Positions 29,212 through 35,529 of a stretch of DNA of 43,401 nt are shown piece by piece (position 1 is the stretch's first letter; every line of letters starts with the position of its first letter). The stretch comes from Candidatus Gastranaerophilales bacterium (lineage in GTDB: Bacteria; Cyanobacteriota; Vampirovibrionia; Gastranaerophilales; Gastranaerophilaceae). The stretch lies in contig CANRGC010000016.1 of the NCBI GenBank assembly GCA_947630045.1, positions 1 through 43,401 of the forward strand, given 5' to 3'. Under the pieces are notes generated by a model that was not told the origin of the DNA, did not search any database, and saw nothing but the letters and a program-made list of their open reading frames with translations. The position numbers and the translations under genes are program-made.

Positions 29212-30123
29212 ATGGAAAATTATGAAATTACAAAAGAGCAATATGAAAACCTTCTTAAGCTTGCGGGGGTTGAACAGGAAGGCTCTAAGTCTTATAAAGA
29301 TTTAATTTCAAAGGCTTTAATTGAAATTGAAAGAAAACTTAACTTTTTTAATTACCCTTTGAATTTTTATACAAGCGAAAATGTTCATGTTTTAATCGCC
29401 GATGATATGGAACTTTCAATTTATCAACTTACTTCCATGTTGAAAAAAATCGGCGCAAACGTTTGTGTTACAAGGACAAAAGAAGAAGCTATTTCAGAAA
29501 TTAAAAAGAAACATTTTGATTATATTATTCTTGATTTGTTTCTGCCCGATTTTGAAGACGGTTTTGAGCTTTTGAAATTTGCAAATAATTACAGAAAAGA
29601 AAAAGAAAGAGATTTTAAAATTCTTGTTGTTTCGGGCACGGATGACAACTCAATCATAGAAAATTGTTATGAAGAAGGAATTGACGAATTTATTTCAAAA
29701 CAGCCCGATTGGCATCAACATGTTATGAAGTTTATATCTGATACGGTTGTTAATGCAAAGAGCGATGAATATCAGAAATATTATATTAATGACGACATTT
29801 GCGTTTTAAGCATTCATAAAATTAACGGGGAAGAATATATTGACAATATTATTAAAGAGGTTAATGCAAACGCCCTGACCGGAAAACCTTATATAGTTTT
29901 TGATATGGAACAGGTTAAAGTTTTTTCGGATAAATATGCCACAGTATTTGCGCAAGTTTTTAAAATTGCAACCCAATCGGGCGGAAATTTTGTTCTTGTA
30001 AAACCGTCTTCCGACATATTGAATGCTCTCCAGTTTGTATTTTTAAATAATGTTATCAACACTTTCTATTCAATTGAAGATGCGGTTAAATATATTGAAG
30101 AAAACAAGTCGAGCAAAAATTAA
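29212..30123 (+). CDS. receiver domain fused to a STAS-like domain
   Basis: 303 residues. An N-terminal helical piece (about 1-55) precedes a receiver domain (about 60-185) with IADD, phospho-acceptor Asp108 in IILDLFLPDF, Ser in VVSGTDD and Lys in FISKQPD. The last 110 residues (about 195-303) look like a STAS domain: a beta strand, IVFDMEQVKVFSD, then helices and NFVLVKPSSDILNAL and IEDAVKYIEE. STAS domains bind anti-sigma factors or other signalling proteins. A receiver-STAS output would couple phosphorylation to partner switching. The typical STAS Ser-Gly-Leu is not obvious, so this part is tentative. Confidence 0.75.
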   Translation: MENYEITKEQYENLLKLAGVEQEGSKSYKDLISKALIEIERKLNFFNYPLNFYTSENVHVLIADDMELSIYQLTSMLKKIGANVCVTRTKEEAISEIKKKHFDYIILDLFLPDFEDGFELLKFANNYRKEKERDFKILVVSGTDDNSIIENCYEEGIDEFISKQPDWHQHVMKFISDTVVNAKSDEYQKYYINDDICVLSIHKINGEEYIDNIIKEVNANALTGKPYIVFDMEQVKVFSDKYATVFAQVFKIATQSGGNFVLVKPSSDILNALQFVFLNNVINTFYSIEDAVKYIEENKSSKN

Positions 30124-30690: not shown

Positions 30691-31704
30691 ATGATTAAAA
30701 AATGTTGTATTGAAATTAAAGAAAGAAAAAAAGGGTTTACTTTAGCAGAGGTGTTAATAACCCTGTCTGTTATCGGGGTAATTGCATCCATAACAATTCC
30801 TTCTTTAATGGCAAACATTCAGGAAAAAACGTGGGAATCTCAAAGAAAGGCACTTGCGGCAAGAATGAGCCAATCTTTTCCGCAACTTAAAAGATTAAAC
30901 GGATATGGATTTAAGACGGACGGAACGGTTGATGTTGATAATGCGTCACAGATTTTTATAACGGAAGGTTTATCTAAGGTTTATAAAATTGCAACCGTTT
31001 GTTCAAAAGACAATATCTTATCTTGCGGGTTGCCTTCCCAAATAACAACCTTAAGCGGCACAAAAACCATAGCTTTCCCCTTAACCCTTGAAGCGGTAAA
31101 TAATTATTTAACCCAACCCTACAGTGATTCCAACGTGAAAGAAGGCGACAGAAATTCAAAAGAAAACGGCGGAATTATTGAAAACACCTCTGTTGCCGCC
31201 TTTGAAACAATGAACGGAGAGTCAATCGCCTTATATTATAACCCTAATTGCAAGCCAACATCCGGACTTGCCGTTCGTAACGGACAGAGTGAAGTTTGCG
31301 TTAATATGATTTATGACTTAAACGGTGCAAAATCGCCAAACGAAGTCGGCAAAGACATAGGTTTTATGACCGTTTTTTCGGCGGTTGACCCTATAGTTGC
31401 TGCGCCTGTACCAATTTATCCGTTTTCAAGCGTGACAAAACCAATGTATAGTAAAAGCGGAGATGACGCCGCCGCTTATTGTAAAGGGCAAAATTCAAAT
31501 TCAAGACTTCCCGATGTTTACGAAGGATATTCGGTTTTTGTAAACCTGAATTTATTGGGCACGGGGCTGACTGATTATTGGACGGGCACACCCTTGAAAG
31601 GGGCGGGGGAAAACGGCGAAACGTTTGATATATGCCCGCATGGCGGCGCATTTTATTATCAAGCTAACAACGTCGGTCTTAACGTTGTTTGCGTAAAAAA
31701 ATAA
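30691..31704 (+). CDS. prepilin-type pseudopilin
   Basis: 337 residues. The type IV prepilin/pseudopilin signature KKGFTLAEVLITLSVIGVIASITIP lies at residues 13-38; cleavage after the Gly and methylation of Phe are expected. The +5 residue is Glu. The mature domain is about 300 residues with Cys pairs and a Gly/Ser-rich body, larger than a major pilin and resembling the minor or adhesive pseudopilins common in Gastranaerophilales genomes. It should be a component of a type IV pilus or type II secretion structure. It is not in an operon. The degenerate GspE/PilB-like ATPase lies convergent to it. Confidence 0.85.
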   Translation: MIKKCCIEIKERKKGFTLAEVLITLSVIGVIASITIPSLMANIQEKTWESQRKALAARMSQSFPQLKRLNGYGFKTDGTVDVDNASQIFITEGLSKVYKIATVCSKDNILSCGLPSQITTLSGTKTIAFPLTLEAVNNYLTQPYSDSNVKEGDRNSKENGGIIENTSVAAFETMNGESIALYYNPNCKPTSGLAVRNGQSEVCVNMIYDLNGAKSPNEVGKDIGFMTVFSAVDPIVAAPVPIYPFSSVTKPMYSKSGDDAAAYCKGQNSNSRLPDVYEGYSVFVNLNLLGTGLTDYWTGTPLKGAGENGETFDICPHGGAFYYQANNVGLNVVCVKK

Positions 31705-31789: not shown

Positions 31790-33169
31790 TTAAAATAAAT
31801 ATTTTGACAGCGCTTCTTTATCAAAAAACTCAATAGTGTCTTTTGTGTGTATGAAAATAAGACATGAAATAACCGACTTAAACATTGAAAATTCAGGATA
31901 TGAAAACTTTCTTCGAAGTTCATCCATATTGTCAGCTAAAAACTCCGTTATCAGGGTTTTGTTTTTTAAAGTTAGCGAGGTGAAAAAATCAAGCCCTTCT
32001 TTGGTTGCAATTCCTTCAAAATAAACAATATCCGGAGATTGAAACTCAATATACCGCATTGCCTTATCCAAATTAAACCCTACAGCCTCATTCAGCTCTG
32101 ATTGTCTTATGTTTTTTAATTTATATTTGGCAATTGATTCCAAAGTCATGGCTGTTTTATTTTCGGGCACAAGTTCGCTTAAAATTGAATAAACAAGATG
32201 AGTTTTCCCCGAAAGCGAACTTCCGCAGACAAGAATAACTCCGGGGGTTAAAAGCGCATTTTTAAGTTTTTCAATTGTTTCTTTGTTTTGAATGAGTTCG
32301 TCAAGTTTTTTTGGCGGATGATAAATTTTTAAAAGAATTCTTTCCCCGTTTATTGTCGGAAACGCAGATATGCTTGCAGTCAGGCTTATTCCGTTCACGT
32401 TGAAATTCAATTTTCCAAGCTGCGGAATTTCCGAAATTGTAGGGTCAAGCGCACACAAAGATTTTAACATTTGAATAAAAGGGCTTATTAATAAGGAAGG
32501 AAGGCTTCCCGTGGAATAAGAGGCATCCCCCTTTTTGAAATTTACCGTAAGTTCGTCAGTTAAATGTTCAAAGAAAAGTTCATGAACCCCTTCATTTATC
32601 GCTTGTTTCAACATTCCTCTGAATAAATTCTGTATACATTCTTCAGATAAATCTTCACTGTGAAGAAGTTCCGTCCAGCTGAAATCATCCTCTTTTTTTG
32701 TTGTAATATCCTGCACTTTGCCCTTAAGGTCATAATATTCATTAATTTTTTTTAAAATGACATTTTGACTTCCAAGCACAGGTTCAATTGTTTTTCCCGT
32801 TCTTTCAATAATTTTGTCAATCGCAAATAAATCTAAGGGGTCTGCCATAATAACGGTGAGCGTGTCTTCAATTTGGAAAAGCGGAAGAATTTTATATCTT
32901 ACAGCTTCGTGATAGCTTATATATTGCAAACACTTTTTATCAATTTCATAATCATCCAAATTAACAAAAGGAATATGAAGCTTTTCTTCCAAAAACTTTA
33001 AAAGGTTTTCTTCCGTAATTAATGAAGAATTAATTAAAACCTGTCCGAGATTTGTATTTTGGGCATTTGCAATCTCTTGCGCCTTTTCAATATCTTCAAA
33101 TGTGATAATATTGTTTCGGACTAAATCATACTTAAGCTTGTCTATGGTTTTGTTTGTAACTAAATCCAT
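31790..33169 (-). CDS. degenerate GspE/PilB-like ATPase
   Basis: 459 residues. An N-terminal MshEN/GspE_N-like domain (about 1-145: LGQVLINSSLITEENLLKFL) precedes a secretion-ATPase domain. Walker A is GSSLSGKT (316-323), which keeps G-x4-GKT. The Asp-box region reads MTLESIAKYKLKNIRQSEL where canonical proteins have EDPVEY. Walker B is DIVYFEGIATKEGL (380-393), where canonical ones have DIxMVGEIRDxETA, so the Arg-Asp is lost. The Cys-x2-Cys zinc pair is absent. This suggests weak or no ATP turnover, or a regulatory paralogue. Third gene of the kinase-receiver operon, three bases after the receiver. Confidence 0.8.
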   Translation of the reverse strand: MDLVTNKTIDKLKYDLVRNNIITFEDIEKAQEIANAQNTNLGQVLINSSLITEENLLKFLEEKLHIPFVNLDDYEIDKKCLQYISYHEAVRYKILPLFQIEDTLTVIMADPLDLFAIDKIIERTGKTIEPVLGSQNVILKKINEYYDLKGKVQDITTKKEDDFSWTELLHSEDLSEECIQNLFRGMLKQAINEGVHELFFEHLTDELTVNFKKGDASYSTGSLPSLLISPFIQMLKSLCALDPTISEIPQLGKLNFNVNGISLTASISAFPTINGERILLKIYHPPKKLDELIQNKETIEKLKNALLTPGVILVCGSSLSGKTHLVYSILSELVPENKTAMTLESIAKYKLKNIRQSELNEAVGFNLDKAMRYIEFQSPDIVYFEGIATKEGLDFFTSLTLKNKTLITEFLADNMDELRRKFSYPEFSMFKSVISCLIFIHTKDTIEFFDKEALSKYLF

Positions 33170-33172
33170 ATT

Positions 33173-33541
33173 TTAAGACTCCAAATATTTATTTACGGCA
33201 TTTAAAATTTCTTCAAATTCAAAAGGTTTTGTAATATATTCGTCAGCGCCCGTTTCTTCGCCGATAAGCTTATCGGCATCTTGCCCTCGTGCTGTCACCA
33301 TAATAATCGGAATATGTTTATATTTGGTATCATATTTTAAAAGACGGGCAATTTTATAGCCGTTAATTTTTGGCATCATAACATCCAAAATAATAAGGTC
33401 GGGCATGTTTTCTTTTGCAAGTTTGAGCCCTTCTTCTCCGTCATAACCTTCAATAACCTCATATCCTTTAGCTTTCAGCATAAAAGAAATGGTTTCCGTT
33501 ATATCTTTTTCATCATCAACAATTAAAATCTTTTTTGACAT
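33173..33541 (-). CDS. CheY-like single-domain response regulator
   Basis: 122 residues from ATG 33541, chosen because AGGGAAG lies upstream. A lone receiver: IVDDEKD, phospho-acceptor Asp53 in LIILDVMMPKING, Thr in MVTARG and Lys in YITKPF. No output domain, so it should act by protein-protein contact, like PilG/PilH or CheY. It sits 29 bases after the kinase and three bases before the GspE/PilB-like gene, so the three are likely one pathway. Confidence 0.93.
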   Translation of the reverse strand: MSKKILIVDDEKDITETISFMLKAKGYEVIEGYDGEEGLKLAKENMPDLIILDVMMPKINGYKIARLLKYDTKYKHIPIIMVTARGQDADKLIGEETGADEYITKPFEFEEILNAVNKYLES

Positions 33542-33570
33542 TTTTTCTTCCCTGATATATGGCAATTCGT

Positions 33571-35529
33571 TTAAACTTTGCTGTAATAAGACTTTGATAA
33601 TACTATATCATGTTTTTCATTATTTTTATTAATTTCTTCGTCTATTCTAAGGCTTATGAAATCGTAAGCTTTTCTGTCAAGCCCCGATATAAAAACTTTG
33701 GTGATACATTTATCATCCGCACAATTTATAAACTCTTTTGAATTTTTTGTTAACTTTATTATGTTTTCATCTTTAAGACGGTTATAAAATTCAGGAGTTT
33801 GTCCGTTTTCTTTAATGATAAAATAAGCGGTTTCACTTGCATTTTTTATCTTTAAATTTAATTCCGTTTCAAAAGCCTTGCTTTCGGAATATACCGGCAA
33901 AACAATGTTAAATGTTGAGCCTTCGTTTTTGACCGAATCAACCCAAATTCCGCCGAGGTGTGCGTCTATAAAATGTTTGGTAATTGTAAGCCCAAGCCCA
34001 ATTCCGCCCGTGTTTCTCGAAAGTGAATTTTCAATTTGCGAGAATTTATCAAAAATTTTAGGAATATCCTCTTTTTCAATTCCCACTCCCGTGTCTTTAA
34101 CGTAAATTCTTATAAAGCCGCCCTTATATTCTTTGGCATAAGGTGAAATTAATTTATCTTTTTCAACAGAGGTCAACAATTCCGCCCCCAAGGAAATCTG
34201 CCCGTTTTCGTTGGTAAATTTAAGCGCATTTGTAATTATATTTGATAAAATTTGATCTATTCTGTGAGAATCTATGTAAACGTCAGGCAAATTTTTATCC
34301 GCATTGAAAGAAAATTCAATTTTTTTGGCGGATGCCTGATTTTTAAACGTGTTATAAGCAAGCTCAAGCGAATTGTAAATAGGAGTTTTTTTGAATTGAA
34401 AATCAAATTTACCGGTTTGCATTCGTGACAAATCAAGCAAGTCTTCAATTATCCCCGATAATCTTGAAACATTTCTTTTCGCCATTTGAGCAAAGTTTTT
34501 ATTAACATCTCCTATTTTGCCGCCCTGTTCCGACAAAATTATATTAAGGGCGTTGTTAATGGGCGTTAAAGGAGTTCTTAATTCATGAGAAACAATTGAA
34601 ACAAATTCCGATTTAATTTTTTCAAGCCTCGTTAATTCAAGGTTTGCATTCTTTATTTCTTCATATAAAACCGCACTTCTTAAAGGGGGCAATATCTGAT
34701 GTACGATAGATTGAAAACAAGCGCCGTCTTCTTTTGTAAACGGATTTTTTCTGAAAACTTCAATTATTCCTTCAAACTTGTCTTTTATGATGATTGGCGC
34801 AATTAAAGTATCAAAATTTGATAAAGTTGAATCATAAAACTCGTTTTTATATGAAGGTTTAACGTTTTGAATGATTTCAACTTCATATTTTGAAGGTTTA
34901 ATTTCATTCAGCCCCTCTTGTTTTGCGGAAATTGCGAGTCTTTTTATAAGGTTTGAATTGGTTTCATCTGTTGTTTTTTTAAGCGAATTTATATAAAATT
35001 TTAATTTTTCGTCTTCAAGGTTTTCTTTAAAAAGTGCGCAGGCAACATCAAAACTTAAAATTCTTTCAAAGGTTTCAAACATAACCTCGTAAAGCTTTTC
35101 TTTATCTAAAGTGCCCGCAAATTTTGAGCTTGCATTATAAAAAGTGTCTATTTGGTATAAGTTTTTTTTCAACTCCAAATTTTCTTTTTGCAAAACAGAA
35201 AACTTTTCTTTATTTTTATATGAAAGATTAATTTCATTAATTAAAAACTCTTTGTTTACAGGCTTCAATATTGTTTTAACCCCGTATTTTGAACATTCTT
35301 CAAAGTTTTCATTTTCCGCAAGGCAAAAAATTTCATATTCTTTAGCTGAATTTTTGTTTGATAATTCCATTAAAATCATTTTAGAGTTTTCAATCTCGTA
35401 ATCTAAAATGATAATATCCGGCTCAAAATCAAACATATCGGAACTAAAAGCCTCAAACACTTTTAAATTAAAAGAAGCAAGAAAACTTTCATATTCTTTA
35501 TTTTTTGAAATTAAAACAATATTTGCCAT
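33571..35529 (-). CDS. cytosolic histidine kinase with degenerate receiver and GAF-like domains
   Basis: 652 residues from ATG 35529, chosen because the extended -10 TGTTAAAAT ends seven bases upstream; a longer frame to 35604 would include the promoter. Residues 1-110 resemble a receiver with IILDYEIEN and ILKPVNKE but without the N-terminal acidic pair. A GAF-like domain (about 130-290) follows, then a coiled coil. HisKA has SHELRTPLTP with His315; the ATPase has NIITNALKFT, DTGVGI and GGIGLGLTITKHF. The C-terminal about 110 residues are unrecognised. Stop is 29 bases before the receiver gene. Confidence 0.88.
   Translation of the reverse strand: MANIVLISKNKEYESFLASFNLKVFEAFSSDMFDFEPDIIILDYEIENSKMILMELSNKNSAKEYEIFCLAENENFEECSKYGVKTILKPVNKEFLINEINLSYKNKEKFSVLQKENLELKKNLYQIDTFYNASSKFAGTLDKEKLYEVMFETFERILSFDVACALFKENLEDEKLKFYINSLKKTTDETNSNLIKRLAISAKQEGLNEIKPSKYEVEIIQNVKPSYKNEFYDSTLSNFDTLIAPIIIKDKFEGIIEVFRKNPFTKEDGACFQSIVHQILPPLRSAVLYEEIKNANLELTRLEKIKSEFVSIVSHELRTPLTPINNALNIILSEQGGKIGDVNKNFAQMAKRNVSRLSGIIEDLLDLSRMQTGKFDFQFKKTPIYNSLELAYNTFKNQASAKKIEFSFNADKNLPDVYIDSHRIDQILSNIITNALKFTNENGQISLGAELLTSVEKDKLISPYAKEYKGGFIRIYVKDTGVGIEKEDIPKIFDKFSQIENSLSRNTGGIGLGLTITKHFIDAHLGGIWVDSVKNEGSTFNIVLPVYSESKAFETELNLKIKNASETAYFIIKENGQTPEFYNRLKDENIIKLTKNSKEFINCADDKCITKVFISGLDRKAYDFISLRIDEEINKNNEKHDIVLSKSYYSKV

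Follow-up and report, generated by a model that had tools for sequence, protein, structure and literature searches.

A soluble histidine kinase, a lone CheY-like receiver and a degenerate relative of the pilus ATPase PilB, here termed pseudo-PilB, are encoded side by side in Candidatus Gastranaerophilales bacterium, and their adjacency, their joint loss and their co-occurrence when unlinked support the placing of all three in one pathway. Gastranaerophilales are an order of gut bacteria, non-photosynthetic relatives of cyanobacteria that are widespread and barely cultured. The host genome comprises 1.70 Mb in 29 contigs, and the window referred to below is the whole stretch analysed, 43,401 nucleotides in length. 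The best explanation of the gene triad, to which we give slightly less than an even chance, is a signalling route that runs from kinase to receiver to pseudo-PilB and acts on the type IV pilus motor.

The triad lies on the minus strand, to which the coordinates of all its features refer, in the order kinase (35529..33571), receiver (33541..33173) and PilB relative (33169..31790). The intergenic gaps measure 29 nt between kinase and receiver and 3 nt between receiver and pseudo-PilB, and plausible ribosome sites precede the ATG of the receiver and ATPase genes. The coordinates, order, strand and gaps of 29 and 3 bases given in a preliminary description of this DNA proved correct on re-check. 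The first gene (33571..35529) encodes a histidine kinase of 652 aa with Pfam matches to HisKA and HATPase_c (AlphaFold model pLDDT 82). Its start at the ATG at 35529 is supported by a Met that is invariant in the aligned relatives. No membrane segment is apparent in the kinase, in keeping with a soluble protein. Predicted fold and residue conservation place a degenerate receiver-like domain at its N-terminus (~aa 1-90), in which 85 of 97 relatives keep the phospho-acceptor Asp whereas the acidic pair and the Lys have not been conserved; a GAF-like domain follows (~aa 140-265, by predicted fold), then HisKA and HATPase_c, and last a C-terminal alpha/beta extension seen in the AlphaFold model (~aa 549-652; 33571-33885). 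Alignment and predicted fold thus bore out a kinase that had been described as lacking a membrane part and carrying a degenerate receiver and a GAF-like domain. None of the 97 aligned kinases varies at the phospho-accepting His315 of the H-box (34585..34587) or at the residues of the N, G1 and G2 boxes. The structural matches of the whole kinase model were taken up by kinase cores. The C-terminal extension, ~100 aa in length, is well predicted, has no Pfam match and occurs in the majority of relatives, though not in every one. Some f1 genera have a gene of 260-285 aa and of unassigned family inserted between kinase and receiver on the other strand (L097:9473-10330; L098:6151-6969; L100:6032-6814), and the kinases of these three loci are devoid of the extension.

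The second gene (33173..33541) encodes a receiver of 122 aa without an output domain; a Pfam search of its sequence returned PF00072 only, with no PATAN domain. All five active-site residues (DD, D, T and K) are kept in 98/98 receivers, including the phospho-accepting Asp53 (33383..33385). By these residues, both the kinase and the receiver look active. The kinase would sense a cytosolic signal through its GAF-like and receiver-like input domains, autophosphorylate and then phosphorylate the lone receiver in a putative phosphotransfer.

The third gene (31790..33169) encodes a protein of 459 aa that combines an MshEN domain with a degenerate PilB/GspE-type core (Pfam MshEN and T2SSE). Its overall fold is of the PilB/GspE type, with an MshEN-type N-domain, an N2D domain and a RecA-like core. 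The model matched the PilB core with a Z of 23.7 and the MshE N-domain with a Z of 17.9, PilB itself being the closest core fold. In the phylogenetic tree, the relatives of pseudo-PilB were monophyletic (support 100/100) and formed one family on a long stem where long branches meet, so that an origin from one particular PilB paralogue could not be placed. The MshEN domain (aa 10-147; 32729..33142; Pfam and model match) is among the best-conserved parts of the protein and scores 33.8 bits against an NCBIfam cut-off of 38. The c-di-GMP motif of MshEN domains consists of two 24-residue motifs, RLGxx...LxxxLxxQ (PMC5013675). In pseudo-PilB, motif II is partly kept, and motif I is not (K-L-K for R-L-G; second Leu and Gln missing); the Gly at position 3 of motif I is Lys13, which makes canonical c-di-GMP binding unlikely, and a role as a canonical c-di-GMP receptor was therefore rejected. 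Eight GGDEF matches are present in the genome.

Residues of the ATPase site were aligned to those of the PilB and PilT encoded in the same genome, and their conservation was scored over 108 distinct relatives. Walker A (GSSLSGKT, aa 316-323; 32201..32224) retains the G-x4-GK[ST] pattern in 105/108. The Asp-box sequence TIEDPIE reads TLESIAK (EDPxE to ESIAK); in every one of the 108 relatives the Asp is replaced by Ser or Ala and the second Glu by Lys, and the resulting E-S-x-x-K motif (aa 344-348; 32126..32140) has Glu344 and Lys348 invariant. VGEIRD, the former Walker B region, reads FEGIAT within IVYFEG (aa 381-386; 32012..32029). Glu385 is present in 108/108, and the catalytic Glu position, 386, is occupied by Gly here and in 87/108 relatives and by Glu in 11/108, the latter having Glu at both positions. 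The tetra-Cys cluster is absent, two CxxC pairs being found in 1/108 relatives. The preliminary description had read the ATPase as one that keeps Walker A and has lost the Walker B context, the Asp-box acidic pair and the Cys pairs; in a proper alignment, the Asp-box and Walker B residues are indeed missing, and the retention of Walker A holds for this protein and nearly all relatives but fails in three. Further losses not described before are the His box, the N2D arginines (arginine fingers) and the C-terminal end of the core, none of which was present in pseudo-PilB aligned to its own PilB and PilT. Four tested features of active PilB/GspE proteins failed, and the protein was therefore classified as a pseudo-PilB and not as an assembly ATPase. 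The P-loop is lost in L110 (f4) and in L119 and L120 (f6); in all three, kinase and receiver still adjoin pseudo-PilB, so these lineages may be able to do without nucleotide binding.

The changes at this site are not those of a gene in decay. Compared with three members of the genus, pseudo-PilB and the receiver had dN/dS values of ~0.05-0.09 and 0.06-0.09, respectively, and the kinase one of 0.15-0.18; all are rough because synonymous sites are near saturation. With this ratio and open reading frames of pseudo-PilB maintained across the order, a decaying pseudogene was rejected; judged by its sequence, pseudo-PilB is a protein rebuilt under strong purifying selection.

Of 80 named loci, 78 carry the whole triad and the remaining two touch contig ends; the three genes mostly overlap or are separated by very short gaps. 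The flanks differ among genera (bioD-like, helicase and other genes) while the triad stays constant, and chance adjacency of the three genes was rejected on this basis; the operon is thus conserved across the order, and on this check the preliminary description was not refuted. Receiver and ATPase are still paired in L104, where the kinase is encoded on the opposite strand. Five genomes (G010, G023, G027, G032 and G036) carry the ATPase gene elsewhere; all five have receiver orthologues (63-66 % identity) and four have kinase orthologues, the fifth, G036, giving a split kinase match. Three others (G004, G094 and G195, the last of which is an assembly only 93 % complete) are without ATPase, receiver orthologue and kinase orthologue alike. 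A profile search for the family at a strict threshold (E<=1e-60), beyond which more distant relatives could exist, found it in 129 of 131 members of the order but in 0 of the 161 genomes from elsewhere in the phylum. In several f3 genomes (L109, L111, L118 and L121), pseudo-PilB does not follow the receiver; its gene immediately precedes the F-type ATP synthase beta/epsilon genes.

The close linkage of a lone receiver to a homologue unable to act as a canonical motor suggests pseudo-PilB as the output of this receiver, which has no output domain of its own. With fold, P-loop and MshEN docking domain retained, pseudo-PilB would no longer hydrolyse ATP in the canonical way. By analogy with the receivers and small adaptors known to act on PilB, the phosphorylated receiver would bind it, and the complex might serve as an adaptor, decoy or brake on PilB, PilT or PilC and so alter extension or retraction. 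Binding between receiver and pseudo-PilB is probable on our analysis, and the pilus as target is a tentative assignment that we rate below even. The preliminary description had proposed a route in which a receiver docks on a pilus or secretion ATPase paralogue to switch assembly or retraction, with a convergent pseudopilin gene beside it. Its shared pathway stands on the adjacency, co-loss and co-occurrence given above, and the docking switch is retained in conditional form: a receiver could act in this way. The pseudopilin was rejected as evidence. A gene for a pilin-like N_methyl protein (30691-31704) does converge with the ATPase gene; it is one of 29 such genes in the genome, the neighbour differs in most relatives, and a convergent pilin-like gene was found in only three other loci. 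The 29 scattered N_methyl genes are a large set for a genome of 1.7 Mb. A response regulator-STAS fusion (29212-30123) lies on the other strand, 1.7 kb from the triad, and a relative of it occurs near the triad in only 1/80 loci.

Genes for PilB and PilT were present in every genome checked and PilC in all six tested; the three genomes without the triad still have PilB and PilC and at least one PilT. The pilus motor is thus present with or without the triad, and presence or absence cannot prove the target. Core pilus motor genes were not seen beside the triad in the loci read, and no PilM_2 match was obtained in six genomes (G000, G004, G094, G195, G014 and G020), both of which are points against a pilus target. 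PilM is a known docking partner of the PilB N-domain, and in these genomes it is therefore missing or unrecognisable; docking on PilM found no support in these six genomes, although a diverged PilM could escape the search. Either PilM may be absent from the pilus of this order, or it may have diverged strongly. The missing C-terminal region, which in PilB bears the Cys cluster, also counts against the preferred explanation. The lack of neighbouring motor genes and of a PilM_2 match also favours a second explanation, rather unlikely in our estimate, in which the receiver controls pseudo-PilB but the pair has left pili and the motor fold now serves some other process as a scaffold that senses ATP or a ligand. 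The MshEN domain is not confined to pilus ATPases (a match to NfrB), the ATP synthase genes follow pseudo-PilB in some f3 genomes, and three members have lost the P-loop. Against such a departure from pili stand the retention of PilB, PilT and PilC in the genomes examined for them, a core fold nearest to that of PilB itself, and the known outputs of receivers on PilB.

It is common for lone CheY-like receivers to work on distant targets. This one could likewise diffuse to another target, such as the flagellar switch, transcription or a phosphorelay, leaving the ATPase as a co-transcribed passenger, and some members of the order are reported to possess flagellar genes (PMC5877343). A passenger, however, would hardly be expected to remain paired with the receiver where the kinase is displaced, to be lost together with both partners, or to accompany them even when unlinked, and we consider this explanation improbable. 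Least probable of all is a pseudo-PilB that has retained ATPase activity through a rewired site, in which Glu385, one residue before the catalytic Glu, would do the chemistry with Lys348 and Glu344: the near-universal P-loop, the invariance of these three residues and the 11 members with Glu at both positions fit it, but the His box and arginine fingers are lost and f6 members without a P-loop still keep the triad.

Control of the pilus motor through a receiver and pseudo-PilB, the explanation preferred here, has partial counterparts in known systems. One is PixE, a PATAN-CheY-like receiver reported to interact with PilB1 in Synechocystis and to control pilus motility (reviewed in PMC7690835). 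That case likewise pairs a response regulator with a PilB-family ATPase, and in the same phylum; however, PixE carries a PATAN domain and acts on the active motor, whereas the receiver of the triad is bare and would work through a separate, inactive copy of PilB whose gene adjoins its own. In the Pil-Chp system of Pseudomonas aeruginosa, phosphorylation of the receivers PilG and PilH controls the extension motor PilB, and PilG directs PilB localisation (PMC12632253). These are also CheY-like receivers, but they are driven by the ChpA chemotaxis-type array and have no dedicated pseudo-ATPase. The PilB-PilZ-FimX complex of Xanthomonas citri, in which PilZ docks on the MshEN-type N-terminal domain of PilB (PMC8389850), resembles the proposed arrangement in placing a small regulator on that domain, but PilZ is not a receiver, and the PilB that it binds works as an active motor. 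TfpB and PilU are secondary pilus ATPases that tune the main motor (PMC11656802); like pseudo-PilB, they are second ATPases of the same family, but they are not described as catalytically dead and have no tie to a kinase-receiver pair. MshE and PilB2 are c-di-GMP-binding assembly ATPases (PMC5013675, PMC11656802) that share the MshEN fold with pseudo-PilB, in which motif I is not kept. Receivers acting on active PilB and secondary pilus ATPases are therefore already known, and what appears to be new is a kinase-receiver pair with a pseudo-PilB of its own, of which we found no description; a search of the open-access literature for a comparable module or a degenerate PilB returned nothing relevant.

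Extended to the order, the finding raises the possibility, which we put at somewhat under one half, of an order-wide pseudo-motor: a PilB copy that has become the dedicated output of a lone receiver and is docked as an inactive homologue into or onto the pilus machine. The invariant signature of Lys348 and Glu385 makes this pseudo-enzyme simple to recognise and to test. If true, the triad would add a novel mode of pilus motor regulation, exercised by a signalling unit kept across nearly the whole of an order of gut bacteria.
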